The notes under the pieces were generated by a model. It worked only from the letters and a program-made list of their open reading frames with translations. It was not told the origin of the DNA and ran no database searches. Shown here piece by piece: positions 12,514 through 23,908 of a DNA stretch of 63,618 bases. A program made the translations under genes and the position numbers. The DNA lies in contig CASFQZ010000036.1 in NCBI GenBank assembly GCA_949296825.1, positions 1 through 63,618 on the forward strand, given 5' to 3'. Position 1 is the stretch's first letter. Each line of letters opens with the position of its first letter. The stretch comes from an uncultured Eubacteriales bacterium (GTDB lineage: Bacteria > Bacillota > Clostridia > Oscillospirales > Acutalibacteraceae).

Positions 12514-13869
12514 TTATTTGTTTGTCAGCTGTTTTTCCACTATGGCGGCAAGCTCCTTTGCCACAGCGTCGGCAAGGGCAGGATCGCGGTGCTCAGTCAT
12601 CACGCGGATCAGCGGTTCGGTACCGGAGGCGCGCAGAACCAGTCTGCCGTCCGCACCCAATTCCTCTCGTGCCTTTTCGGTTGCCTGCTTGATTTTCAGG
12701 TCGGTATAGAATGCCAATTTACCCTCCGGACTTACCTGGACATTGATCATTGTCTGCGGGAATTTTGTCATGCAGTGAGACAGGTCGGAAAGCCGCTCGC
12801 CGGTGCGGCGGATCTGGGAAAGCAGCTGGATCGCTGTCAGCTGTCCGTCGCCGGTGGTCGCAAAATCCCGGAAAATAATATGCCCGGATTGCTCGCCGCC
12901 AAAGTTGAAATCTTCCAGCAGCATCTGTTCCAGAACATAACGGTCGCCGACTTTTGTCGCGGCAAAGTCGATGCCGTTTTCTTCGCAGAATTTCACAAAG
13001 CCCAGATTGGTCATAATGGTACCTACGATGGTGTTTTTGGCGAGCTTGCCGCGCATTTTCATGTCCGGCGCCAGAATCGCCATAATGTTGTCGCCATCGA
13101 TCAGATTTCCCTGATCGTCTACGCAAAAACAGCGGTCAGCGTCACCGTCAAAAGCACATCCGGCGTCCAGGTGATTTTCTTTTACATAGGCGCACAGGGC
13201 TTCCGGGTGAGTTGAGCCGCAGCCGTCGTTGATGTTGGTGCCGTTCGGCTCATGGAACAGCATATGACAGTTCGCACCCAGCTCGGTAAACAGGCGTTCT
13301 GCGGTGGCGGAGGCGGAGCCGTTGGCGCAGTCGACCGCAATTTCCATGCCATCCAGCGAATAGGGAACGGTGCATTTCAAATGCGCGACATAATCCTTAA
13401 CCGCATTTTCCGCCCGATTGACTCTGCCGACATCGGCGGCGGTCATCTGCGGGTGGCGGTGGGAGTTTCCGGTGATGATGTTTTCGATCTCTTCTTCCAG
13501 TGCGTCGGGCAGCTTATAGCCGTCGCCGCTGAAAATCTTTAACCCATTATACTCAAAGGGATTGTGAGAAGCAGAGATCATGATGCCTGCGTCAGCCTTG
13601 TATTTTCCGACCAGATAAGCCACAGCAGGTGTCGGGACCACGCCCAGATCGATTACATCTGCACCTACGGAGCAAAGTCCCGCGATGGCGGCGCTTGCCA
13701 GCATACCGGACGAAAGGCGCGTGTCGCTGCCGATGACGAATTTCGGGTGACGGCGGCTATCTGCCGATAAAACAGCGGCTGCCGCTCTGCCGACGCTCAT
13801 GGCGAGCTCCGGCGTCAGATCCTGATTGGCAATTCCGCGGATCCCATCGGTTCCAAATAAAATTCCCAT
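12514..13869 (-). CDS. glmM: phosphoglucosamine mutase
   Basis: GlmM converts glucosamine-6-phosphate to glucosamine-1-phosphate for UDP-GlcNAc and peptidoglycan synthesis. The 451-residue product begins MGILFGTDGIRGIANQDLTP, has the phosphoserine loop ISASHNPFEYNGLKIF near residue 98, the metal loop AFDGDADRC near 240 and the phosphate-binding RASGTEPLIRVM near 416-427. The ATG at 13869 sits after GAGGAGG; an extension upstream is unsupported. It follows the acetyltransferase-like gene by 13 bases, so the two form an operon. Confidence 0.96.
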   Translation of the reverse strand: MGILFGTDGIRGIANQDLTPELAMSVGRAAAAVLSADSRRHPKFVIGSDTRLSSGMLASAAIAGLCSVGADVIDLGVVPTPAVAYLVGKYKADAGIMISASHNPFEYNGLKIFSGDGYKLPDALEEEIENIITGNSHRHPQMTAADVGRVNRAENAVKDYVAHLKCTVPYSLDGMEIAVDCANGSASATAERLFTELGANCHMLFHEPNGTNINDGCGSTHPEALCAYVKENHLDAGCAFDGDADRCFCVDDQGNLIDGDNIMAILAPDMKMRGKLAKNTIVGTIMTNLGFVKFCEENGIDFAATKVGDRYVLEQMLLEDFNFGGEQSGHIIFRDFATTGDGQLTAIQLLSQIRRTGERLSDLSHCMTKFPQTMINVQVSPEGKLAFYTDLKIKQATEKAREELGADGRLVLRASGTEPLIRVMTEHRDPALADAVAKELAAIVEKQLTNK

Positions 13870-13882
13870 TTTCTTTTCCTCC

Positions 13883-14548
13883 TCAAGATTGAATGACGAT
13901 GATTTCACGGGCGTTCTTATAGATGCAGTTTTCCGGCACTACGCCCCGTACCGAAGAAAGGGGATAAACCCTTGCATGTTTTCCTATGATAGTACCCGGG
14001 TTCAGCACGCTGTTGCAGCCAATCTCGGCGTAATCTCCTAAAAAAGCGCCGACCTTTTTGCGGTTTGTTTCCCAGCTTTGCCCTTCATAGCGAATGACAA
14101 CGGGCGTTTTATCTCCCTTGACATTGGAGGTTACCGCGCCCGCGCCCATATGGGCATGGAAGCCCAAAACGGAATCACCGACATAGTTGAAATGCGGAAC
14201 CTGTACACAGTCAAACAGAACCGCATTTTTCACTTCGCAGGAATTGCCGACAACGGCGTTTTTTCCGATCAGGACATTGCCTCGAATAAATGCCCCCGGG
14301 CGAAGCTCAGCGCCTTCGTCGATGATGCAGGGCCCGGTGATGCTTGCCGACGGGTGGATGACGGCGGTCTTATGAATAAATATCCCGTTCCCTTGCGCCT
14401 CGTATGTTTCGGGCAGCGTATGGGAGAGGGCGAGAATGGCGTCGTCCAATGCTGCCAGAACCTCCCATGGGTACCGGCAGCGGCTAAATAAAGCGGGATG
14501 CAGCGTATGAGAAAGGTCAAATAATGCAGCGATTTCTGGTAGGGACAA
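13883..14548 (-). CDS. left-handed beta-helix (hexapeptide) acyltransferase-like protein, GlmU C-terminal type
   Basis: The 221-residue product has a short helical N-terminus and then hexapeptide repeats (about residues 57-200, e.g. HKTAVIHPSASITGPCIIDEGAELRPGAFIRG read in short turns). The segment KNAVLFDCVQVPHFNYVGDSVLG and GDKTPVVIRYEG resemble the acetyltransferase half of GlmU, but there is no pyrophosphorylase domain. It lies directly upstream of glmM, which suggests a sugar-nucleotide role. I chose a TTG start because AGGAGG is seven bases before it; an ATG farther upstream has no such site. Substrate is not known. Confidence 0.8.
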   Translation of the reverse strand: MSLPEIAALFDLSHTLHPALFSRCRYPWEVLAALDDAILALSHTLPETYEAQGNGIFIHKTAVIHPSASITGPCIIDEGAELRPGAFIRGNVLIGKNAVVGNSCEVKNAVLFDCVQVPHFNYVGDSVLGFHAHMGAGAVTSNVKGDKTPVVIRYEGQSWETNRKKVGAFLGDYAEIGCNSVLNPGTIIGKHARVYPLSSVRGVVPENCIYKNAREIIVIQS

Positions 14549-14565
14549 AGGAACTCCTCCTGAAT

Positions 14566-14586
14566 CATATAATAATTTATTATATG
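14566..14586. promoter_or_regulatory. 21-bp perfect palindrome upstream of the acyltransferase/glmM operon
   Basis: CATATAATAA, a central T and TTATTATATG form a perfect inverted repeat 18 bases upstream of the TTG start. It contains TATAAT on the minus strand, so it overlaps a likely -10 element and could be an operator. Such AT-only palindromes can also arise by chance in promoters. Confidence 0.4.
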
Positions 14587-14805
14587 TCATATTCGTTGAA
14601 AATACAATAAAAAAGACGAAAAATAAACAAGGGAATTGGAAATATTGATGAGCTGTGAAATAGATGTAAATCTTCTTTGCCAAAGGGAATGTTTGCCGGA
14701 ATGTTCATATATTCTTTATACGCGGGCGGTAAAAATCGTCTACAATCATCTTGTAAGAAGAGAGTTCTTATTTGTGAGGCTGTTGTACGGCTGAAAGGAA
14801 ATTGT

Positions 14806-15246
14806 ATGAATATTGTAATGCTGCTGAAGCCGAAATCGGAGGTCGCCTATATCCGGGAAGAAAGCACCCTGCGCCAGGCGCTGGAAAAAATGAAAATCCA
14901 CGGCTATTCCGCGCTGCCGGTGCTGGACCGGGACGGTACGTATCGGGGAACGGTGAGCGAGGGCGATTTTTTATGGGAGCTGTTGGAGCGCGACGGCAAA
15001 ACCCTTCGCTCGAGTGAGAAACAAACGGTTGCCGAGATCCTGCGACCGGGCTTTAACCCCGCTGTGACCATTGATACGACGATGGATGATTTATTGACCC
15101 GTGTGATGGACAGTAATTTTGTGCCAGTGGTGGATGATCGGAATGTTTTTATGGGAATCATTACCCGTCGGGACGTGATTAAGTATTTCAGAACGGTAAA
15201 AATTTTTAATGAAAGCCTGTTTTCTATGGCAAGCGTTCCGGTGTGA
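14806..15246 (+). CDS. CBS-domain pair protein
   Basis: The 146-residue cytosolic product consists of two CBS domains (about residues 8-60 and 75-140), with STLRQALEKMKIHGYSALPVLD and VMDSNFVPVVDDRNVFMGIITRRDVI. CBS pairs bind adenosine nucleotides and act as energy or redox sensors; here no effector domain is attached, so it may act on a partner. The ATG at 14806 follows AAAGGAA. A strong terminator follows. The longer upstream frame is not supported. Confidence 0.85.
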   Translation: MNIVMLLKPKSEVAYIREESTLRQALEKMKIHGYSALPVLDRDGTYRGTVSEGDFLWELLERDGKTLRSSEKQTVAEILRPGFNPAVTIDTTMDDLLTRVMDSNFVPVVDDRNVFMGIITRRDVIKYFRTVKIFNESLFSMASVPV

Positions 15247-15260
15247 TTTTCAGTCAACCG

Positions 15261-15302
15261 AAGCGGTCCGTGCCGGCAACGCCGGTGCGGACCGCTTTTT
15301 TT
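15261..15302 (+). terminator. intrinsic terminator after the CBS gene
   Basis: AAGCGGTCCG and CGGACCGCTT form a long stem with an inner CCGGC/GCCGG stem, followed by TTTTTT. Confidence 0.92.
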
Positions 15303-15335
15303 ACACAGGAAAAGCCATCTGCTCGGAAAAAAATC

Positions 15336-15365
15336 TTGCCATAACTTGTCGTCCTGTGCTATAAT
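15336..15365 (+). promoter_or_regulatory. sigma-A promoter for the rlmB-like gene
   Basis: TTGCCA and TATAAT are separated by 18 bases, about 75 bases upstream of the methyltransferase start and just after the preceding terminator. Confidence 0.7.
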
Positions 15366-15438
15366 AAAAAATAATTATACGATCTTTCCGACGCTGCCGC
15401 CTTTCGGTGCGGCGGGAAGAATTTTGGTTGGTTGTGTA

Positions 15439-16194
15439 ATGGACAATAAAAAAGATCTTGCTGCCGACCAGGATCTGATCATCGGCAGAAATGCGGTGCG
15501 AGAGGCGTTGCGCAGCGGCAGAGCGGCGGATCATCTGCTGGTTGCCAGGGGTGCGGCAGGCGGATCTCTGACGCCGTTGTTGGCTTTATGTAAAGAGAAA
15601 AAGATCCCGATTAAGGAAGCGGACGGCAAAAAACTCGATCAGCTTTGCGGAGGTGCGGCGCATCAGGGCGTGATTCTGTTCGCGGCGGCGCACGCCTATG
15701 CTTCGCTGGAGGATGTGTTCGCGCTGGCGCAGGCGCGGGGAGAGCCGCCGTTTCTTGTTATTTGTGACGGGCTGGAGGATCCGCACAATCTCGGAGCAAT
15801 TCTGCGCTCGGCGGAAGCGGCGGGCGTTCATGGGGTGATTATTCCGGAGCGGCGCAGCGTTTCGCTTTCATCCCGGGCGGGCAAGGCGGCAGCCGGTGCG
15901 CTGGAATATGTGCCGGTGGTGCGGGTGACTAATCTGAATCGAACCGTTGCGCAGCTCAAAGCGCGCGGCGTTTGGGTCTGGGCGGCGGATATGGATGGCT
16001 CGCCGTATTATGAAACGGATCTGAGCGGTGCGCTGGCGCTGATCATCGGCTCCGAGGGGCATGGTGTCAGCCGGCTGCTGAAGGAAAATGCAGATGGTGT
16101 GATTTCCATCCCCATGAAGGGGAAGATCAATTCCCTGAATGCGTCGGTTGCGGCGGGGATTTTGTTGTTTGAAGCGGCGAGAGTCAGAGCATAA
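15439..16194 (+). CDS. rlmB: TrmH/RlmB-family 23S rRNA 2'-O-ribose methyltransferase
   Basis: SPOUT-class enzymes of this family methylate ribose 2'-OH in rRNA (Gm2251 for RlmB) using S-adenosylmethionine. The 251-residue product has the N-terminal substrate-binding domain (IIGRNAVREALRSG) and the knotted catalytic domain: motif 1 DPHNLGAILRSAEAAG near residue 118, motif 2 LIIGSEGHGVSRLL and motif 3 IPMKGKINSLNASVAAGI. The ATG at 15439 has only a weak ribosome site (GGTTGG). The exact RNA target within the family is inferred. Confidence 0.88.
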   Translation: MDNKKDLAADQDLIIGRNAVREALRSGRAADHLLVARGAAGGSLTPLLALCKEKKIPIKEADGKKLDQLCGGAAHQGVILFAAAHAYASLEDVFALAQARGEPPFLVICDGLEDPHNLGAILRSAEAAGVHGVIIPERRSVSLSSRAGKAAAGALEYVPVVRVTNLNRTVAQLKARGVWVWAADMDGSPYYETDLSGALALIIGSEGHGVSRLLKENADGVISIPMKGKINSLNASVAAGILLFEAARVRA

Positions 16195-16220
16195 AATATG
16201 GAAAAAAGGAGGCGGTGCAT

Positions 16221-18848
16221 ATGGCAAAAGCAAAAAAGCGCGGCGCACGCGGCGAAGAAAAAGCAATGAAAGAAAAAGCGCCGCAGATGCGGGAAGACAA
16301 ATTGTCTGAGCCCAAGACGGACGATCCGTCCAGAAGCGCGGCGGACGCGTATATCCAAAGCCTGATCAACGCGTATGCGCAGGAGCGGAATGAGGAAACT
16401 GTGGGTCCCGGTCAAGGGGCGGAGGGTGCGGAGCCGTCTGAGCAGTCAGAGACGACGGATATTCCGGAGAACGTACCCGAGGAGGAAGTGGTTGCCGCCG
16501 AGCAGCAGGAGCCGGAGACAGAGCCGGTAGTTGACGTGCAGCAGGAAACGCCGCAGAAAGGGAGTCGCCGGCGATTGCGGCAAAGAAAGAGCAAGCCGGT
16601 AAAGCCCGCCGAGGTACATCATGATGATGCAGCTGCGCAGACGCTTGCCGAGGAGATGTCAGCTGCTCTTCCTCAGACCGAAAGTGATATTATCCGTTAT
16701 TTTAACGATCCGGAAGAATATAAGTATGAACAGGAAAAAAAGGCAGCAGGCATTCGGCGTGGACGGGCGAAGGTCTTTCGCCGTGGCGGAAGTGTAGACC
16801 CGACGCCGGAGTCAAAACCGGAGGTTTTTCATCGAATTCATGCGGCGCAGTTGGAGCATTCCGAGCCGGGCGAAGAGCCGACGGAAGGGAAGTTCGCCGA
16901 TGAGGCAGAGCAGCCGGAAGCGCAGTCGGCGGATGGCGCGACCCGTAAATTTATTAAAGCAGAGCCACCGCAGCCGCAGGATGAAAGCGAGGCGCCTTTT
17001 GAAGCAGAGGCGCCGGAAGAGGCAGCGCTGCCGCAGCCGAACACCCGGCGCAGCCGTTTGTTTGCCAGTTTGCTTGCCGAGGATGAGCTGCCGCTAAGAT
17101 ACCCGGAATATGCCGAAAAAGAGGATGAAAAAAAAGTCAGGGACTTTTTGATCCGCTGCAAGCGCAATGGGCTTATCAGGCTTGCTGTTTCTGGCGGCGC
17201 GCTGCTTTTGTCTCTTTTGTTTTCCCTGATTCCTGCGCTTCAGTCCATCGGGGAGACGGAGCGGACGCTGCATTTATTCGGCGGCAATGGTCTTGCCTAT
17301 GGCATGGTGATGCTGATTTTGTTTATGATCGGTATTGCGCCGCTGATTACAGAGTTTTCTGACGGCATTGCGTTGCTGCTGCGAAAAAGAGCAGGCAGCA
17401 GCACAGCGCTTCTGCTTTTGTGGGTGGCGGTGCTTTTGCAGAATATTGTCCTTTTGCTGATGCCGGAAAAAATTTATACCCAGTGTTTTTTATACAATAC
17501 GGCGGCGCTGGCATTGACGGATTTGGTTTATCTGTTCCGTCTGTCTGCCGTTGCGCGCACGACGGCAGGATTTCGCTCTCTGATTTCACAGCAGCCGCAA
17601 TGCGCCATTACCCGTGTCGCCGATGCGCACCGCAGTGAAAAAATAGGGCAGGGTATTTTGGAGTCGGACGCGAAAATTTACTATCGCTCCAAATTGCCGG
17701 GAATGGATAAACTGATCAATGTTTCCATCGGTGACGATCCGACCGTCGGCATTTGCAGTATCCTTTTGCCGGTCTGTCTCGGTGTCGCAGCGTTGGTTTT
17801 CGTGATTATGGCGATTGTTACAAAGGATGTCGGTGCGGCAATCACCGGTTTTACGGCGGTGATTCTTGCGACCTCTCCCCTGCCGGTCGGTGTGGCGTTA
17901 AAGGGCCTGCTGGATTCTTTCAACCGGCGGGTCGCGCAGGACAGAGGGGTGATCCCGGGATATTCCACGGCGGTTTCTTTTGCCTCCGCCGATGCGCTGA
18001 TTTTTGACGCTTCGGAGCTGTACGATGCTCAATCTTTGCAGCTGGATAGTGCGAAAACGTTTCATGATCATCAGCTTTATAACGTAATTTTACAGGCGGC
18101 GGCGTTGTTTATTGAGTCCGACAGTCCGCTGAGTGAAACCTTCCGACAGGTCATCGCCGGCAAAACCGAGCTTTTGCCGCCGGTGGAGCTGCTGATTTAT
18201 GAAGACCGCCAGGGGCTTTCCGCCTGGGTCGGCAACAAGAAAATTCTGGCAGGAACCCGGGATATGATGATCAATCATAATGTGGAAACGCCTCCGGATT
18301 CGCTGGAGAAAAAATATTTGCAGGACGATGAAAATCGGCGAATTATTTATCTCGCCATCGATGGCGAGTTAGCGGCGCTGTTTGTGGTCGGTTACGGGTT
18401 AAAGCCGGAAATTTGCAAGGAGTTGTCCTATCTGGTAAAGCATGGCTTTACCATCCTGCTGCGCTCTACGGATCCGAATATTACCGACGCGATGGTCGAA
18501 AAGCAGGCGTCGCTTGCCGCCGATACCATTAAGGTGATAAATACCGAAGCCGCTGAATATTTTAAAATGTGCCGCTCTGAGGAAACACTGCGCACGCAGA
18601 CCTGCCTGTTCAGCCGCGACCGGATCGGGGCGTCTCTCCGTTTAATGAGTGCAGCCGTGCGTCTTCGCAATGCGCTGGAGCTGACAACGCCCTTCGCAAT
18701 CGTTACCGCCGTCCTGGGTCTTGTATTGATTTCTGTTTTGATGATTTTTTCCGGCGCAGGAGCTGTTGCAGGCTGGCACCTTTTCCTTATGCAGCTGCTC
18801 TGGATTGGAATCGGGTCCTTTGCGTGCCGCTTCCTGGCAAAAAAATAA
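16221..18848 (+). CDS. degenerate P-type ATPase-like membrane protein with a long disordered N-terminus
   Basis: The 875-residue product has three parts. Residues 1 to about 310 are acidic and rich in E, P, A and Q, with KR clusters, and look disordered. Residues about 316-560 hold some six membrane segments. Then comes a cytosolic region resembling the P- and N-domains of heavy-metal P-type ATPases, and two final membrane segments. The phosphorylation motif DKTGT is replaced by DASEL (Asp596), the pre-motif membrane CPC by TSPLPVG, and TGDN by STDPN; no GDGxND is seen. Residues such as LSAWVGNKKILAGTRDMM still match the ATPase fold. It is therefore probably a non-catalytic relative. Start chosen by AAGGAGG eight bases upstream. 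Function unknown; an mgtC-like gene follows. Confidence 0.75.
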   Translation: MAKAKKRGARGEEKAMKEKAPQMREDKLSEPKTDDPSRSAADAYIQSLINAYAQERNEETVGPGQGAEGAEPSEQSETTDIPENVPEEEVVAAEQQEPETEPVVDVQQETPQKGSRRRLRQRKSKPVKPAEVHHDDAAAQTLAEEMSAALPQTESDIIRYFNDPEEYKYEQEKKAAGIRRGRAKVFRRGGSVDPTPESKPEVFHRIHAAQLEHSEPGEEPTEGKFADEAEQPEAQSADGATRKFIKAEPPQPQDESEAPFEAEAPEEAALPQPNTRRSRLFASLLAEDELPLRYPEYAEKEDEKKVRDFLIRCKRNGLIRLAVSGGALLLSLLFSLIPALQSIGETERTLHLFGGNGLAYGMVMLILFMIGIAPLITEFSDGIALLLRKRAGSSTALLLLWVAVLLQNIVLLLMPEKIYTQCFLYNTAALALTDLVYLFRLSAVARTTAGFRSLISQQPQCAITRVADAHRSEKIGQGILESDAKIYYRSKLPGMDKLINVSIGDDPTVGICSILLPVCLGVAALVFVIMAIVTKDVGAAITGFTAVILATSPLPVGVALKGLLDSFNRRVAQDRGVIPGYSTAVSFASADALIFDASELYDAQSLQLDSAKTFHDHQLYNVILQAAALFIESDSPLSETFRQVIAGKTELLPPVELLIYEDRQGLSAWVGNKKILAGTRDMMINHNVETPPDSLEKKYLQDDENRRIIYLAIDGELAALFVVGYGLKPEICKELSYLVKHGFTILLRSTDPNITDAMVEKQASLAADTIKVINTEAAEYFKMCRSEETLRTQTCLFSRDRIGASLRLMSAAVRLRNALELTTPFAIVTAVLGLVLISVLMIFSGAGAVAGWHLFLMQLLWIGIGSFACRFLAKK

Positions 18849-18878
18849 CGGTTTCCTTCCGTTGTTTGGAGGAATGAG

Positions 18879-19655
18879 ATGTTGTCTGATTTTTATATTG
18901 ATACCAATATTTATATCTGGGATCTGGTTGCCCGCATTGCAATGGCGGTCGTTATCGGGTTCTTTCTGGGACTGGAACGGGAGATATCCCATCATCCCGC
19001 CGGGATCAAGACGCATGTCCTGGTTTGTCTCGGATCGGCGATTTCTTCGCTGATTGCGGTGGAAATGGCGTACCAGGCGAGACTTTTCCCTACCAACCTA
19101 GATCTGTCCCGTATTGCGTCCGGCGTGGTATCCGGCATGGGTTTTATTGGCGCGGGCGCCATCATCAAATCCCGCGACGGCACCATGGTCACCGGTATTA
19201 CCACCGCTGCGACCCTCTGGGTGTCAAGCTGTCTGGGACTTGCCATCGGTATGGGGTATTACCGTATGAGCCTGATCGCTTTCGTTGCCATCTACGGTAC
19301 CACGCTGGTGCTGAAGTGGCTGGAACGCCGGGTGTTTCTGAAAAAGCGCACCCGCCGTGTTGAAATCGTTTTTGTGGACAAAACCACATTAATTCCACAG
19401 GTTGATTCTTATTTTGAAAGCAAGCGAATTTTAGTAACCGCCTTTGATTATCTTTCCCATCCCGACCGGACCGCAGACGGAAAAAAGATTTATCGCTGCC
19501 GCTATACTTTGAGAATCCCCCATGGGCTTGTTTTTGTGGCGGTGATCAAGGACTTGGCGATGATGGATAACATACTGGAGACGTATGAAGTCTTTCCGGG
19601 GAAGGACGAGGCGATTCCCTATACGCCTTCCGTATCTGAGCGGAGCGGGCGATGA
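18879..19655 (+). CDS. MgtC/SapB-family membrane protein
   Basis: MgtC-family proteins are inner-membrane proteins tied to magnesium limitation and regulation of ATP synthase in pathogens; the role in clostridia is not established. The 258-residue product has the family N-terminal membrane domain (GFFLGLEREISHHPAGIKTHVLVCLGSA and SGMGFIGAGAIIKS, in shorter runs) with about four or five helices, and a C-terminal ACT-like cytosolic domain (residues about 155-250). GGAGGAAT precedes ATG, 30 bases after the pseudo-ATPase gene, so the two are likely cotranscribed. Confidence 0.88.
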   Translation: MLSDFYIDTNIYIWDLVARIAMAVVIGFFLGLEREISHHPAGIKTHVLVCLGSAISSLIAVEMAYQARLFPTNLDLSRIASGVVSGMGFIGAGAIIKSRDGTMVTGITTAATLWVSSCLGLAIGMGYYRMSLIAFVAIYGTTLVLKWLERRVFLKKRTRRVEIVFVDKTTLIPQVDSYFESKRILVTAFDYLSHPDRTADGKKIYRCRYTLRIPHGLVFVAVIKDLAMMDNILETYEVFPGKDEAIPYTPSVSERSGR

Positions 19656-19734
19656 ACAGGGCGGAAAAATTTGTATGTTTTGGCTAAACCATCTTGACCT
19701 TTTTCGCCGCCTTTGTTACAATTGAATGGAAAAG

Positions 19735-19780
19735 AAGGATACAGCAAAGACGTTTCCGGTTTTTCGCTGTGTCCTTTTTT
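19735..19780 (+). terminator. intrinsic terminator after the mgtC-like gene
   Basis: AAGGATACAGC pairs with GCTGTGTCCTT across a 20-base loop and is followed by a run of Ts. It lies between the mgtC-like gene and the MFS gene. Confidence 0.8.
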
Positions 19781-19806
19781 TACTCGAAGAATAAGGAGGC
19801 GGGATC

Positions 19807-21273
19807 GTGGCGGAAAAAGCAAAGCTCGATTACAAAAAAACCATATTGATCGGCTTCGGTTTTATGGCTACATCCATTGCGTGGGCGATTTACGACCCGT
19901 ACGTGACAAAAATATTGAATCGGCTTCTGACCGATTCGCCGCTTATTACCTCGTGGAGCAATGCGCTGATTGATCGATTCCCTGATCTGGTCCGCTTTGC
20001 TGAGGCGCAGGGTGAAAATGTACAGATAGCCGGCGGCGGCTTTACCCTGGTGCCGCTGTTTATCGGTATTATCATGACCTTTGATAATCTGTTCGGCGTG
20101 ATTTTCCAGCCGACCTTCGGTAAGTTGAGCGACCGTTGCCACTCCAAGCTGGGTAAGCGCCGCCCCTTTATCGTTTCTTGCGCGCCGATCTCGGCGGTGC
20201 TGTTTTTCCTGATCCCAATCATGTCCAAGGTCAGTCTGTCTGCTACTATGGCAGTGATCATTCTGTTTGTTTTCTCCATGTCTCTTTGGCGTGCGCCGGT
20301 GGTGGCGCTGATGCCGGATCTGACACCGACAGAGCTGCGCAGCGAGGGCAACGCTGTGATCAATCTGATGGGTGGCGCAGGCAGTCTGGTGGGGTTGGTT
20401 GCCGGCACGTTGGTTGTTGCCATTTACGGCGCGGCAACCGGACTTTCCGGTGATCAGATCGCGGAAGAGGATTACTTCCCTTATGTGTTCTTGATTGGCT
20501 CGATCATTATGCTATTGGGAATGCTGGTGCTGCTGTTCTTTGTCAAGGAGCCGGACAGCCGCCTGTCTGTTGCGGCGGAAAAAAATATGGCTGCTGATGA
20601 AAAGGCGAGACGCCAGGCAGAAAAGGCCGCTAGAAAAGCTGAAAAAGAAAAAATTAAAGCGGAAAAGCTGACAAAGGGCGAGCGCGTCAGCCTGATTTTT
20701 ATGCTGCTGGGGCTGTTTTTCCTATTCTGCGGCACCAATGCCATTACCACCTTCTTCTCCCTCTTTGCGGCGGAAGTTCTGGGCAAAACCACATCGGAAG
20801 CAACGATTATGATGGGCGTGTTTGCGGTGTTTTCTGCGGTTGGCGCGATTCCCGCCGGTTTCTTCGGCAAAAAGCTCGGACGGAAAAAGACCATCCTTCT
20901 GGGGCTGGGGCTGTTCATGGCGGTCTTTGTCCTCTATCTTGCAACGCGCAGCATGGCGCTGATCTGGGTCGCTCTGGTGGTCGGCGGCGTCGCCAATATG
21001 TTCATTACCGTCAACACCCTTCCGCTGGTTCTGGAAATTGGCGGGCTGGATAAGGTCGGTACCTTTACCGGTTATTATTATACCGCCACCTTCTCCGCGC
21101 AGATTGCCTCCCCCATTGTCTACGGTATTGTACGGATGTTTACCGGCACCTATATGTCTTTGTTTGCTTATTGCCCGATCGTGTTTGTGCTTGCTATTCT
21201 GTGCATTCTTTTTGTGCGCCACGGCGAAGCACTGCCGGATGCGGTGATCGAAAAGGCAAGAGAAGAAGATTAA
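19807..21273 (+). CDS. MFS transporter (SLC45/GPH-like sugar transporter)
   Basis: This 488-residue protein has about twelve membrane segments in two halves joined by a Lys/Ala-rich cytosolic linker near residues 255-300 that should form a charged helix. The loop 2-3 region PTFGKLSDRCHSKLGKRRPFI resembles the D-R-x-x-x-x-G-R-R motif of sucrose/disaccharide transporters, in short runs. A sugar:cation symporter or efflux role is inferred; no substrate is shown by context. The GTG start follows AAGGAGG by seven bases. A terminator follows the gene. Confidence 0.82.
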   Translation: MAEKAKLDYKKTILIGFGFMATSIAWAIYDPYVTKILNRLLTDSPLITSWSNALIDRFPDLVRFAEAQGENVQIAGGGFTLVPLFIGIIMTFDNLFGVIFQPTFGKLSDRCHSKLGKRRPFIVSCAPISAVLFFLIPIMSKVSLSATMAVIILFVFSMSLWRAPVVALMPDLTPTELRSEGNAVINLMGGAGSLVGLVAGTLVVAIYGAATGLSGDQIAEEDYFPYVFLIGSIIMLLGMLVLLFFVKEPDSRLSVAAEKNMAADEKARRQAEKAARKAEKEKIKAEKLTKGERVSLIFMLLGLFFLFCGTNAITTFFSLFAAEVLGKTTSEATIMMGVFAVFSAVGAIPAGFFGKKLGRKKTILLGLGLFMAVFVLYLATRSMALIWVALVVGGVANMFITVNTLPLVLEIGGLDKVGTFTGYYYTATFSAQIASPIVYGIVRMFTGTYMSLFAYCPIVFVLAILCILFVRHGEALPDAVIEKAREED

Positions 21274-21598
21274 AGGCGGAAAGAATACAGCTGATATAAA
21301 TATCGTTCTAAAAAGAGCAGCAAAGAACAGCTTCTTTGCTGCTCTTTTGGTAAAGAGAATGCAAAGAGTAAATAAAAAACACGGTGTAATGTTTTCTGTT
21401 ATTTTCTCATATATTCATATTGAATTCATATTTATATCGTATTTTTGTATAACAGGACAAGAAAAGGACAAAAAATCCATTTTTATCCTGAAAAAAATGT
21501 AAAAGATGCCGTGCAGCCGGCGCGTTTCTATGGTGTCAGGGGAATCTTTTTTGCAATCCATTCTGTACGGCGCAGAAGAAAAAACGGAGGTATTTTTT
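21274..21598. other. 325-base intergenic region
   Basis: The first part holds the terminator of the transporter gene. The rest is AT-rich with a TTCATAT repeat around TGAATTCA, then the ribosome site of the dockerin gene. No convincing promoter pair with 17-base spacing was found, and no gene is seen. Confidence 0.6.
21311..21348 (+). terminator. intrinsic terminator after the MFS gene
   Basis: AAAGAGCAGCAAAG and CTTTGCTGCTCTTT make a perfect 14-bp stem with an eight-base loop, followed by a T-run. Confidence 0.9.
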
Positions 21599-23908
21599 AT
21601 GAGAAGAAGAATTTCCCGCTTTCTTGCCGTCGGGCTCTCATGTCTTCTTTTTCTTATCGCCTGTCTTCCAGCGGCGTACGCCGTTGAAGGTGCGCGCACC
21701 TACGACACGGCGAATTACCATGTAACCAAAATTTCCAATCCCACCACCGGCAGCGGTGAGCCGGACGGCATTTTGCTGGGAGATGAAGCGAACCGCATCA
21801 ACTCTTACGCCTGGGCGACCGCGTATCGAGACGGATATTTGTATATTGGTGTAAACCGCAATTTCCTGCAGGTTGCCGTGAACAATTTTGTTCCCATTGG
21901 CAGCGAAACGCTGAATCGCTTTACGACGCTTTTCAGTCATGGTGAAATTCCGGATTTCAGCGAGGAGCAAAGGCAGCCGCAGATCATCAAGCTGGACCCG
22001 GCGACAGGCGAGACAGAGGTTATTTATGAGCCGCCCTATGTGGAAGAGTGGGGCTATTATCGGGACGCGGCGTATCGGCACGTAATCGATTATAAAGGGG
22101 ATCTGTATTTCGGCACTTTCAGCGGTTCTTCTGCCCGCATTCTGAAAGTCGATCAGAACGATCAGGTCACCGAGGTGTTTGACGGCGGCGGAAATTCCTC
22201 CTATCGCACCGGCTGTATTTATAAAGACGAATTATATTATGCCGGTCTGGACGATCGGATCACCGGCAATATCGCACCGGATGGTTCCGCCTATACCAAG
22301 ATGGCGATCATTCGCATGGAAGGCGATGAGTGGAACAGAGTTGCCGATTATAAGGATTTTATCGCTTATGCGCAGGATACGATTTATCAGGGCGAAGGCG
22401 GCAATATGTGGGATATCATAGAGTATAACGGATATCTTTATGCGATCATTGCCGTTTCCGATGGTTTTGTGATGTTCCGCGGGCTGGAATCGCCCGAGGA
22501 TCCGGCGGCAAATGAATACGGCTGGGTCTGGCAGGAAGTTATCGGCAAAAACAGCGAATATCATATGGGGCTTGCGCCTACGGCAGAAGGGTATCCCTAT
22601 GAAGGCGCCGTCGCCAGCTCCGCCACGCCGGTGGTTTATCAGGGAAAGTTGTATCTGGGAACTTTCGATTATGCGACGCGCTCCATGGCGGCGTTTGTAC
22701 GTCAGCTTGCGCCGATAATTGCCGGCACGGGCGATTCGGTCAAGCTTTCTCAGTTGTTGGCGCCCTTATATGCCTCCGTCACCCATCCGCAAAAGCTGTA
22801 TGCAATGGATGAAAACGAGAATATCACCGAGGTAACCGCTTTTAATGAGTTGCTGGAAGGTACATCCAACGAATATATCTGGCGGTTCCAGGAGCACAAT
22901 GGCAAGATGTACATCGGCACCTTTGACGCCGAAACGATGTACAAATATTTGACGCAGATCACCGACGGTTTTTTGGCGACGATGGACAGCGAGGAGCTGA
23001 TGACGATCATCGGAGCGCTTCTTCCGCTGCTCAGCGGCGGGGGAGAGGAAGCCGAAGCACTGGCGGATGCAGCTTCTGATGAGCTGACGCCGGAAAATGC
23101 GGAAACAATGGTGAAAAGCGCGGAAGCCTTGCAGGAACAGGTTGATGCGGTAGAGGATGAGGCGCAGCAGGAAGAGGCGGACGGACTTTTGCAAAAAATC
23201 CTTTCCGTTTTGGATATGCAGGGCGTTGAAATGTATCTGGAAATTGCAAAACTCCTTGCGGATAATCCTGCCGGCTTTGATATGTATGTGACCTCCGATA
23301 TGGAGAATTTTGAAAAAATCACCGACAACGGTTTTAACGATCCATACAATTACGGCGCACGGACCTTCGTTTCCGCTGAGGAGGGGTTGTATATTGGCAC
23401 CGCCAATCCCTTCTACGGCGCCCAGGTCTGGCTGCTGGAGGACGCCGCGCCCGGAGAAAATGTGCAGCTTCCCGCTTCTGCCGGACTGAATCTTTCGGAC
23501 GGTACAGTAGGGCTTTTGCTGCCGGGAACCAAAGCGGGTATTTTGAAAACGGCGCTGCAAAGCAGTGATGTGCTCGACCTTGCCATTACCAATTCCGCCG
23601 GTGAGGGCAAAGCGGACGACGCTGTGCTGATGACCGGCGATGTGGTTAAAACCACCGTGCGTATTACCTTTACCGAATTTAATGTTTCCGAGTATACCGT
23701 TGCGGTGGCGGGCGATCTGGACGCGGACGGAGTGTGTGATACCTCTGATGCGCGCTTGGCGCTGCGGATCGCGTGTCTTCTGGAGGATGCAGATTCCGCA
23801 GTCAGAAGAGCTGCGAATCTGGATCAGAAAGGGGATGTGACCAGCGCGGATGCGCGGCTGATTCTGCGCGTCGCCGTTGGGTTGGACAAATTAAGCGAGC
23901 TGTTGTAA
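21599..23908 (+). CDS. secreted dockerin protein with repeated YIGT-type (propeller-like) segments
   Basis: The 769-residue product has a signal peptide (basic MRRR, hydrophobic stretch, AYA cleavage near residue 27). The body has recurring aromatic-Gly motifs (YLYIGV, LYFGTF, LYLGTF, MYIGTF, LYIGTA), which suggests a beta-propeller, with an acidic helical insert at about residues 470-560. The C-terminus is a type I dockerin with two calcium-binding repeats (DLDADGVCDTSDARLAL and DQKGDVTSADARLIL). Dockerins dock onto cohesins; no cohesin is in the window. The ATG at 21599 follows GGAGGT by seven bases; an in-frame ATG 31 codons upstream lacks one. The substrate is unknown. Confidence 0.8.
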   Translation: MRRRISRFLAVGLSCLLFLIACLPAAYAVEGARTYDTANYHVTKISNPTTGSGEPDGILLGDEANRINSYAWATAYRDGYLYIGVNRNFLQVAVNNFVPIGSETLNRFTTLFSHGEIPDFSEEQRQPQIIKLDPATGETEVIYEPPYVEEWGYYRDAAYRHVIDYKGDLYFGTFSGSSARILKVDQNDQVTEVFDGGGNSSYRTGCIYKDELYYAGLDDRITGNIAPDGSAYTKMAIIRMEGDEWNRVADYKDFIAYAQDTIYQGEGGNMWDIIEYNGYLYAIIAVSDGFVMFRGLESPEDPAANEYGWVWQEVIGKNSEYHMGLAPTAEGYPYEGAVASSATPVVYQGKLYLGTFDYATRSMAAFVRQLAPIIAGTGDSVKLSQLLAPLYASVTHPQKLYAMDENENITEVTAFNELLEGTSNEYIWRFQEHNGKMYIGTFDAETMYKYLTQITDGFLATMDSEELMTIIGALLPLLSGGGEEAEALADAASDELTPENAETMVKSAEALQEQVDAVEDEAQQEEADGLLQKILSVLDMQGVEMYLEIAKLLADNPAGFDMYVTSDMENFEKITDNGFNDPYNYGARTFVSAEEGLYIGTANPFYGAQVWLLEDAAPGENVQLPASAGLNLSDGTVGLLLPGTKAGILKTALQSSDVLDLAITNSAGEGKADDAVLMTGDVVKTTVRITFTEFNVSEYTVAVAGDLDADGVCDTSDARLALRIACLLEDADSAVRRAANLDQKGDVTSADARLILRVAVGLDKLSELL

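Follow-up and report, generated by a model that had tools for sequence, protein, structure and literature searches.

A putative P-type pseudo-ATPase with a P1B scaffold, conserved through a bacterial order

Gene, neighbors and predicted fold

The window (the whole stretch of DNA that was analyzed, 63,618 nucleotides) contains an open reading frame on the + strand that runs from GTG 16215 or ATG 16221 to 18848 and encodes a membrane protein of 877 aa (875 aa from the ATG). The ATG is the more likely start, and a GGAGG sequence is located 5' of the start at 16208-16212. The gene, referred to below as the pseudo-ATPase gene, is preceded by an rRNA methyltransferase gene and followed by a gene of the MgtC family. 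Its parts are given here, with domain limits and helix count read by eye from the secondary structure of the predicted model.

15433..16194, + strand: rlmB-like SpoU rRNA 2'-O-methyltransferase gene, conserved upstream partner (Pfam, synteny)
16215..18848, + strand: putative pseudo-P1B-ATPase gene (open reading frame, GGAGG, orthologues)
16221..17111, + strand: acidic N-terminal tail of about 297 residues (alignment, composition, disorder of a homologous tail)
17118..17582, + strand: first four long helices, MA, MB, M1 and M2 by position (AlphaFold2 model)
17583..17744, + strand: shrunken A-domain remnant, TGES stretch deleted (model, profile alignment, motif columns)
17745..17936, + strand: M3 and broken M4 (model, motif columns, conservation)
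17937..18065, + strand: P domain, first part (model, motif columns)
18066..18401, + strand: N domain, which is the most conserved region (YEDxxGLSxW, Gly680, Tyr727), with the HP histidine lost (conservation, motif columns)
18402..18581, + strand: P domain, second part (profile alignment, motif columns)
18624..18842, + strand: last two long helices, M5 and M6 (AlphaFold2 model)
18879..19655, + strand: MgtC-family gene (PF02308, E 4.9e-37)

The window also encodes a CBS-domain protein upstream of rlmB (14677-15246), a hexapeptide-repeat protein divergent from the CBS-domain gene (13883-14683) and an MFS transporter downstream of mgtC (19807-21273). An MFS-related gene is found near the pseudo-ATPase gene in 4/59 loci. 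Rfam gave no match in window positions 13000-22000.

As a single sequence, the window protein yields nothing in Pfam up to an E-value of 10, and the gene is therefore probably annotated as hypothetical. Pfam searches with eight relatives gave sub-threshold matches only, some of them to hydrolase and E1-E2 ATPase. The NCBIfam CopA model matches residues 513-788 below its threshold (E 5.4e-11; 41 bits, cut-off 1316), and a PDB search with the window sequence alone returned CopA (3rfu) at E 0.004. A profile of orthologues (alignment A1, 53 rows, without the broken or short members L011, L021, L024 and L058 and without L062, which was missed at first) aligned collinearly with the same chain at E 5.7e-40, and sequence homology to P1B ATPases spans M3/M4 and the P and N domains. 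This alignment jumps twice, once in the A domain (33 query positions against 97 chain residues, about 64 residues) and once in the P domain (9 query positions against 40 chain residues, about 31 residues), which we take to be the places of TGES and GDGxND in CopA. Alignment to the genuine ATPases of the protein's own genome shows both deletions directly.

The AlphaFold2 model of the window core with 47 relatives (pLDDT 88.4, pTM 0.86) shows P and N domains and what is left of the A domain, in addition to eight long helices with a break close to the M4 proline. Alignment A4 comprises the window protein plus 47 loci chosen from 57 candidates; L073, L085, L095, L104, L106, L110, L112, L114, L115 and L116 were omitted because they are near-copies, have C-terminal tails or would have enlarged the set. 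In Foldseek, ranks 1-28 are all P1B ATPases or KdpB/KdpFABC chains, with LpCopA (4bbj) as the best match (E 8.6e-18). The TM scores over these ranks are moderate (0.32-0.54) with high rmsd, probably due to domain movement. The initial annotation had recognized the layout of a heavy-metal P-type ATPase, and the profile and structure matches to P1B ATPases agree with it. Neither of two findings that it had named as contrary, absence of a P-type match and absence of a P/N fold in structure prediction, was made: the profile and Foldseek matches to P1B ATPases are strong and the modeled core carries both domains. Judged by its profile matches and predicted structure, the window protein is a true homologue of the P1B (copper) ATPases.

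Motif loss and conservation in the family

In the window protein, DASEL is found at 18006-18020 where DKTGT is expected (its D at 18006-18008), S-P-L within TSPLPVG replaces CPC in M4, with the helix-breaking proline as the sole remainder (17877-17879), and STDPN at 18465-18479 replaces TGDN. The GDGxND stretch is deleted just 3' of STDPN. All these losses had been listed by the initial annotation and are upheld here; a further loss is that of the TGES stretch, after which about 50 residues of the A domain are left in both model and alignment.

The same state is conserved in the orthologues. We collected 117 loci of the family, corresponding to 108 distinct genes, and read the motif columns in the 104 of 108 distinct cores that are over 480 aa, aligned with three ATPases of the window's own genome (L001, L003, L004). 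The TGES and GDGxND columns are empty in 104/104 aligned cores, and the GDGxND pattern itself occurs in none of the 108 cores. An orthologue with intact DKTGT, which would have spoken against the initial annotation, was not found either: DKTG is absent from all 108 distinct cores, so that DASEL in the window is the local form of a family-wide change. The Lys of this motif is lost in the family and its Gly is replaced by Asp or Glu in 96/104 cores. Its Asp is retained in 72/104 cores, a count that could be too low because an alignment shift could hide more in the 19 cores with an Asp one column on. The M4 proline is retained in 94/104 cores and the second Cys of CPC in eight; CP[CHS] is found in a single core out of 108 (L043, as CPS) and CPC in none. 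SEHP likewise occurs in 0/108 cores. The HP-site His is replaced by Gly (57 cores), Ser (28) and a few others, and the seven commonest residues, none of them His, account for 102/104 cores. The Asp of TGD is retained in 102/104 cores and is followed by Asn755 (90%) and Thr757 (77%). Elsewhere in the 108 cores, loose patterns are rare (TGEA in two, HP[LIV] in four, TGD in five).

Mean column conservation, calculated within the pseudo-ATPase family alone, is highest in the N domain (0.49), followed by the P domain (0.40-0.42), M3/M4 (0.36), and TM1-4 and M5/M6 (0.32). Near-invariant columns are Gly680, Tyr727 and Gly667 (99-100%) and Asp753 (98%). In M3/M4, polar columns all stay below 60%, which, together with the well-conserved N domain, favors a kept head surface over a kept ion path. 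Three polar columns stand at 61-66% in the first four helices (Gln409, Arg448, Asn452) and two at 63-66% in M5/M6 (Gln860, Trp863), which leaves some room for a membrane path.

The P1B copper ATPases (CopA 3rfu/4bbj, ATP7B, HMA4) share the helix plan, the M4 broken at a proline, and the P and N folds. They carry DKTGT, TGES, GDGxND, CPC and the HP-site His, whereas the pseudo-ATPase has none of the five and has a long acidic tail. To our knowledge, it is unusual for a motif-less pump to be conserved near-universally through an order. The literature search, with most of the subscription literature outside its reach, returned no paper joining P-type ATPase with pseudoenzyme and, among the papers listed, no description of such a bacterial family, and none is described in four passages of a P-type ATPase review (PMC10654040). 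The closest known case is TMEM94/ERMA: it lacks TGES and GDGVND and has an altered phosphorylation motif, DKQGI, which keeps Asp and Lys, along with 10 helices and an A domain, and the human structures contain no bound nucleotide (PMC13322241). Compared by these published features, the pseudo-ATPase resembles ERMA in the two missing motifs and the altered phosphorylation motif, but differs in having eight helices, a lost Lys and outright deletion of the TGES and GDGxND stretches. Neither DKQGI in the motif columns nor 10 helices in the model, as reported for ERMA, was found.

Distribution, genomic context and tails

Of 148 genomes of the order, at least 95% complete apart from that of the window (92%), 144 carry the pseudo-ATPase, with one match each at E 1e-50; the exceptions are G344, G372, G381 and G387. 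An earlier survey of 60 relatives had given a match at E 0.001 in 58, with some weak rows representing genuine ATPases of the same genomes. Across the class, 14/15 order genomes matched the profile along almost its full length, at 325-731 bits. None of the remaining 278 genomes, out of 293 in the class, gave a full-length match (best 141 bits), and the matches listed among them are confined to roughly model positions 226-526, where ordinary P-type ATPases would be expected to match. In a survey of the phylum, four of 299 genomes carry the gene, all four belonging to the order, which is in all likelihood the Oscillospirales. Among viral contigs, 27 pattern matches were found and none was confirmed as a relative.

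The core evolves with dN/dS values (Nei-Gojobori) of 0.066 (window-L006), 0.097 (window-L007) and 0.127 (L006-L007), and the tail with 0.16-0.28 in the same three pairs; these values are approximate because dS is 1.5-2.7, near saturation. The gene is kept and not decaying: it is open and in single copy in nearly all order genomes, and dN/dS is low in the three pairs. In-frame stops or frame breaks were observed in L011/L065, L021, L058, G385, G393, G408 and G419; among these, three species of a single genus have one TGA each. Gene splitting, recoding and decay are all possible explanations.

A tree of 24 pseudo members, hand-picked for spread from the 117 loci, and 18 genuine ATPases separates the two groups by one branch (100/99). 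The latter stem from 30 genuine ATPases collected, 19 of which passed the region filter; 17 of the 18 are CPx-like by a loose regular expression and one is not. L136 was left out as poorly filled (-2.1 bits, 14%); its place among the pseudo rows in a tree that included it was an artefact of the region cut. A single origin would be the simplest reading of this tree and is no proof, with several pseudo branches being long.

The product of the upstream gene matches PF00588 (E 6.3e-43) and PF08032 (E 6.9e-20), from which we infer the name rlmB. A homologue lies directly upstream of the pseudo-ATPase gene in 95 of 97 testable genes. Specifically, in 93 of the 108 distinct genes it is the immediate upstream neighbor and shares the strand; in two more (L021, L011/L065), the pseudo-ATPase gene is broken and rlmB stands before its first piece. 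It is absent upstream in L043 and L062, and 11 genes have under 600 nt of room. The genes around this pair vary by group (parA-parB-serS-like, spoIIE-like and others). The MgtC neighbor pointed out by the initial annotation is real, yet it is not a conserved association: of the 102 distinct genes followed by 900 nt or more, five have mgtC downstream, namely three genes from the genus of the window, together with L012/L066 and L107, and we reject it as a conserved partner.

A second kind of degenerate P-type ATPase was observed in the order (L148:4051-6261 on the - strand, L150, L151, L152 and L153). These P2-like proteins resemble the pseudo-P1B protein in having a P-type layout without DKTGT or GDGxND but form a separate sequence family, in which the A domain is kept (PF00122 at 60 and 65 bits in the two scanned) and no long tail is present in the sequences seen. 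In G054, one such gene immediately precedes rlmB and the pseudo-P1B gene, and by coordinates one lies beside the pseudo-P1B gene in G386, G369, G357 and G378. Adjacency is thus found in 5/148 order genomes, all from two genera of order family f19. A match at E 1e-30 or better occurs in 3/148 genomes and a profile match at 1e-20 in 40/148. Most of 25 further loci checked for motifs are genuine with DKTGT intact, the exceptions being L152, L153, L155 and L165, with DKTGV in L159. L155 (G388) and L165 (G385) are degenerate P2-type ATPases whose contigs do not carry the pseudo-P1B gene.

The tail of the window protein is acidic (D/E 22%, K/R 14% over about 279 residues before the core), and Pfam finds no domain in it. 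The initial annotation had described a disordered acidic N-terminus; the acidity stands, and the disorder holds in one modeled relative, L091, as the window model reached only the last residues of its own tail. In the full-length AlphaFold2 model of L091 (pLDDT 77), values fall below 50 at 1-9, 27-140, 152-193 and 218-236, with short tail helices, among them 199-216 and the WSLEEIDELL motif (14-23); in the core, which begins at 241, values reach 83-96 by blocks of ten.

The tails share short motifs. The motif [FWYLM][ST][LIVFM][DE][DE][ILVM][LIDMV] occurs in the first 100 residues of 44/102 distinct tails (from a total of 110) and in 1/486 neighboring open reading frames; shuffles of the same 102 tails gave a mean of 0.05 and a maximum of 1 in 200 shuffles, a control that flatters the motif because it was devised after viewing the tails and many tails are near kin. 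In an unbiased count of short patterns over 73 representatives of 104 tails, YR..F (15 versus 0.5) and ID.LL (13 versus 0.45) are enriched, and KYRxRF, IDxLL, SxDxIL, LxPxPT and others are in clear excess. In the members read by eye, the motifs follow one order from N- to C-terminus: (F)SLDDIL, WSLEEIDxLL, NENIxHxI and KYRxRFxN, then PGxVxKKSxF with LxPxPT, QLxFxGF and a charged helix before the first membrane helix. Alignment A5 holds 37 full-length members chosen for shared tail motifs. The tails of the window genus lack the [FWYLM][ST] motif above and have their own set: a MAK..KR start, H-x-I then EHS, and KFI in all six aligned, and DAYI[QK]xLIxAY and IRYFNxPEEYKY in three of six. Seven members (L051, G353, G364, G374, G382, G366, G407), of which five belong to family f10 and two to f14, have open frames of about 545-555 aa and lack the long tail. 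Six others have an extra acidic C-terminal tail (L104, L106, L112, L114, L115, L116) with LFxRFEDD near the end in all six, followed by a [VI]F[AS]GL motif in five; Pfam on five of the six gave nothing of use.

A proposed pseudo-enzyme at the membrane and its alternatives

The reading that we favor, and hold to be about as probable as all others together, is that of a P-type pseudo-ATPase: a P1B scaffold that has lost its catalytic motifs and is kept as a membrane docking or sensing platform, not as a pump. The acidic tail (disordered in the modeled relative), the predicted fold and the conserved motif loss fit a pseudo-enzyme that senses or scaffolds, as the initial annotation had proposed, and the conserved head and recurrent tail motifs favor docking. 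The motifs for phosphorylation, dephosphorylation and metal binding would have disappeared from the scaffold before the sampled order members split from one another. The eight-helix body would then serve as a membrane anchor, and the conserved N domain would form, together with the D-x-N-I-T site in the P domain, a head that binds a ligand or a protein. The disordered tail, on the cytoplasmic side, might recruit partners through its short motifs, with the state of the tail set by what the head binds. Going by its motif columns, such a protein would neither hydrolyze ATP nor transport. Counting against this reading are the tail-less members, the polar membrane columns at 61-66%, and the Asp kept in 72/104 cores, given the D-dependent Mg2+ transport reported for ERMA (PMC13322241).

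The foremost rival is a divergent but working ion transporter or channel, as reported for ERMA, in which the chemistry would fall to the remaining Asp or to a relocated site, or ion passage would need no ATP. We consider it unlikely. The Asp in 72 cores and one column on in 19, the Mg2+ transport reported for ERMA with its similar losses (PMC13322241), the few polar membrane columns at 61-66% and the MgtC neighbor in the window genus are in its favor, but TGES and GDGxND are deleted, not merely changed, in 104/104 cores, CPC occurs in none, and M3/M4 lacks a polar column at 60% or more.

A still less probable role is that of a regulatory subunit, an inactive partner of a genuine P-type ATPase of the cell. 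The window's own genome does encode four genuine P-type ATPases with DKTGT, and family f19 has the second degenerate ATPase beside the gene in five genomes. Among the neighbor clusters common to at least four of 59 loci, however, no P-type ATPase was recognized by eye, and the degenerate one is found at this place in only two genera of one family.

A role in sporulation or in the spore envelope, in an order whose members are largely spore-forming, seems improbable, and we reject it as the main reading. In 14/59 loci, the gene upstream of rlmB, on the other strand, is one that we take to be SpoIIE-like; SpoIVA is present in 139/148 order genomes, and G011, from the first 60 genomes, lacks both SpoIVA and the pseudo-ATPase. 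The pseudo-ATPase is not lost along with SpoIVA, though: eight of the nine SpoIVA-less order genomes keep it (one of them, G385, with an in-frame stop), which makes sporulation unlikely as its sole role. G021 and G028 likewise keep it without SpoIVA, and SpoIVA is present in three of the four genomes without the pseudo-ATPase. Decay or an assembly artefact, which the few members with an in-frame stop or frame break might suggest, has a negligible chance and is refuted for the family as a whole by its single-copy retention in open frame in nearly all sampled order genomes and by the low dN/dS in three pairs.

Returning to the pseudo-ATPase reading, the rlmB link suggests ribosome maturation as a field of action, and a functional tie to RlmB is conceivable, while the link may be only co-transcription. 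In its most extended form, which is possible but doubtful, the family would be an order-defining, ligand-gated membrane docking hub that recruits partners by its string of motifs and couples the membrane to ribosome maturation via its operon partner RlmB. As a pseudo-ATPase, the protein would allow the question that TMEM94/ERMA has opened in eukaryotes, namely what the P-type fold can do without its catalytic motifs, to be asked in bacteria.
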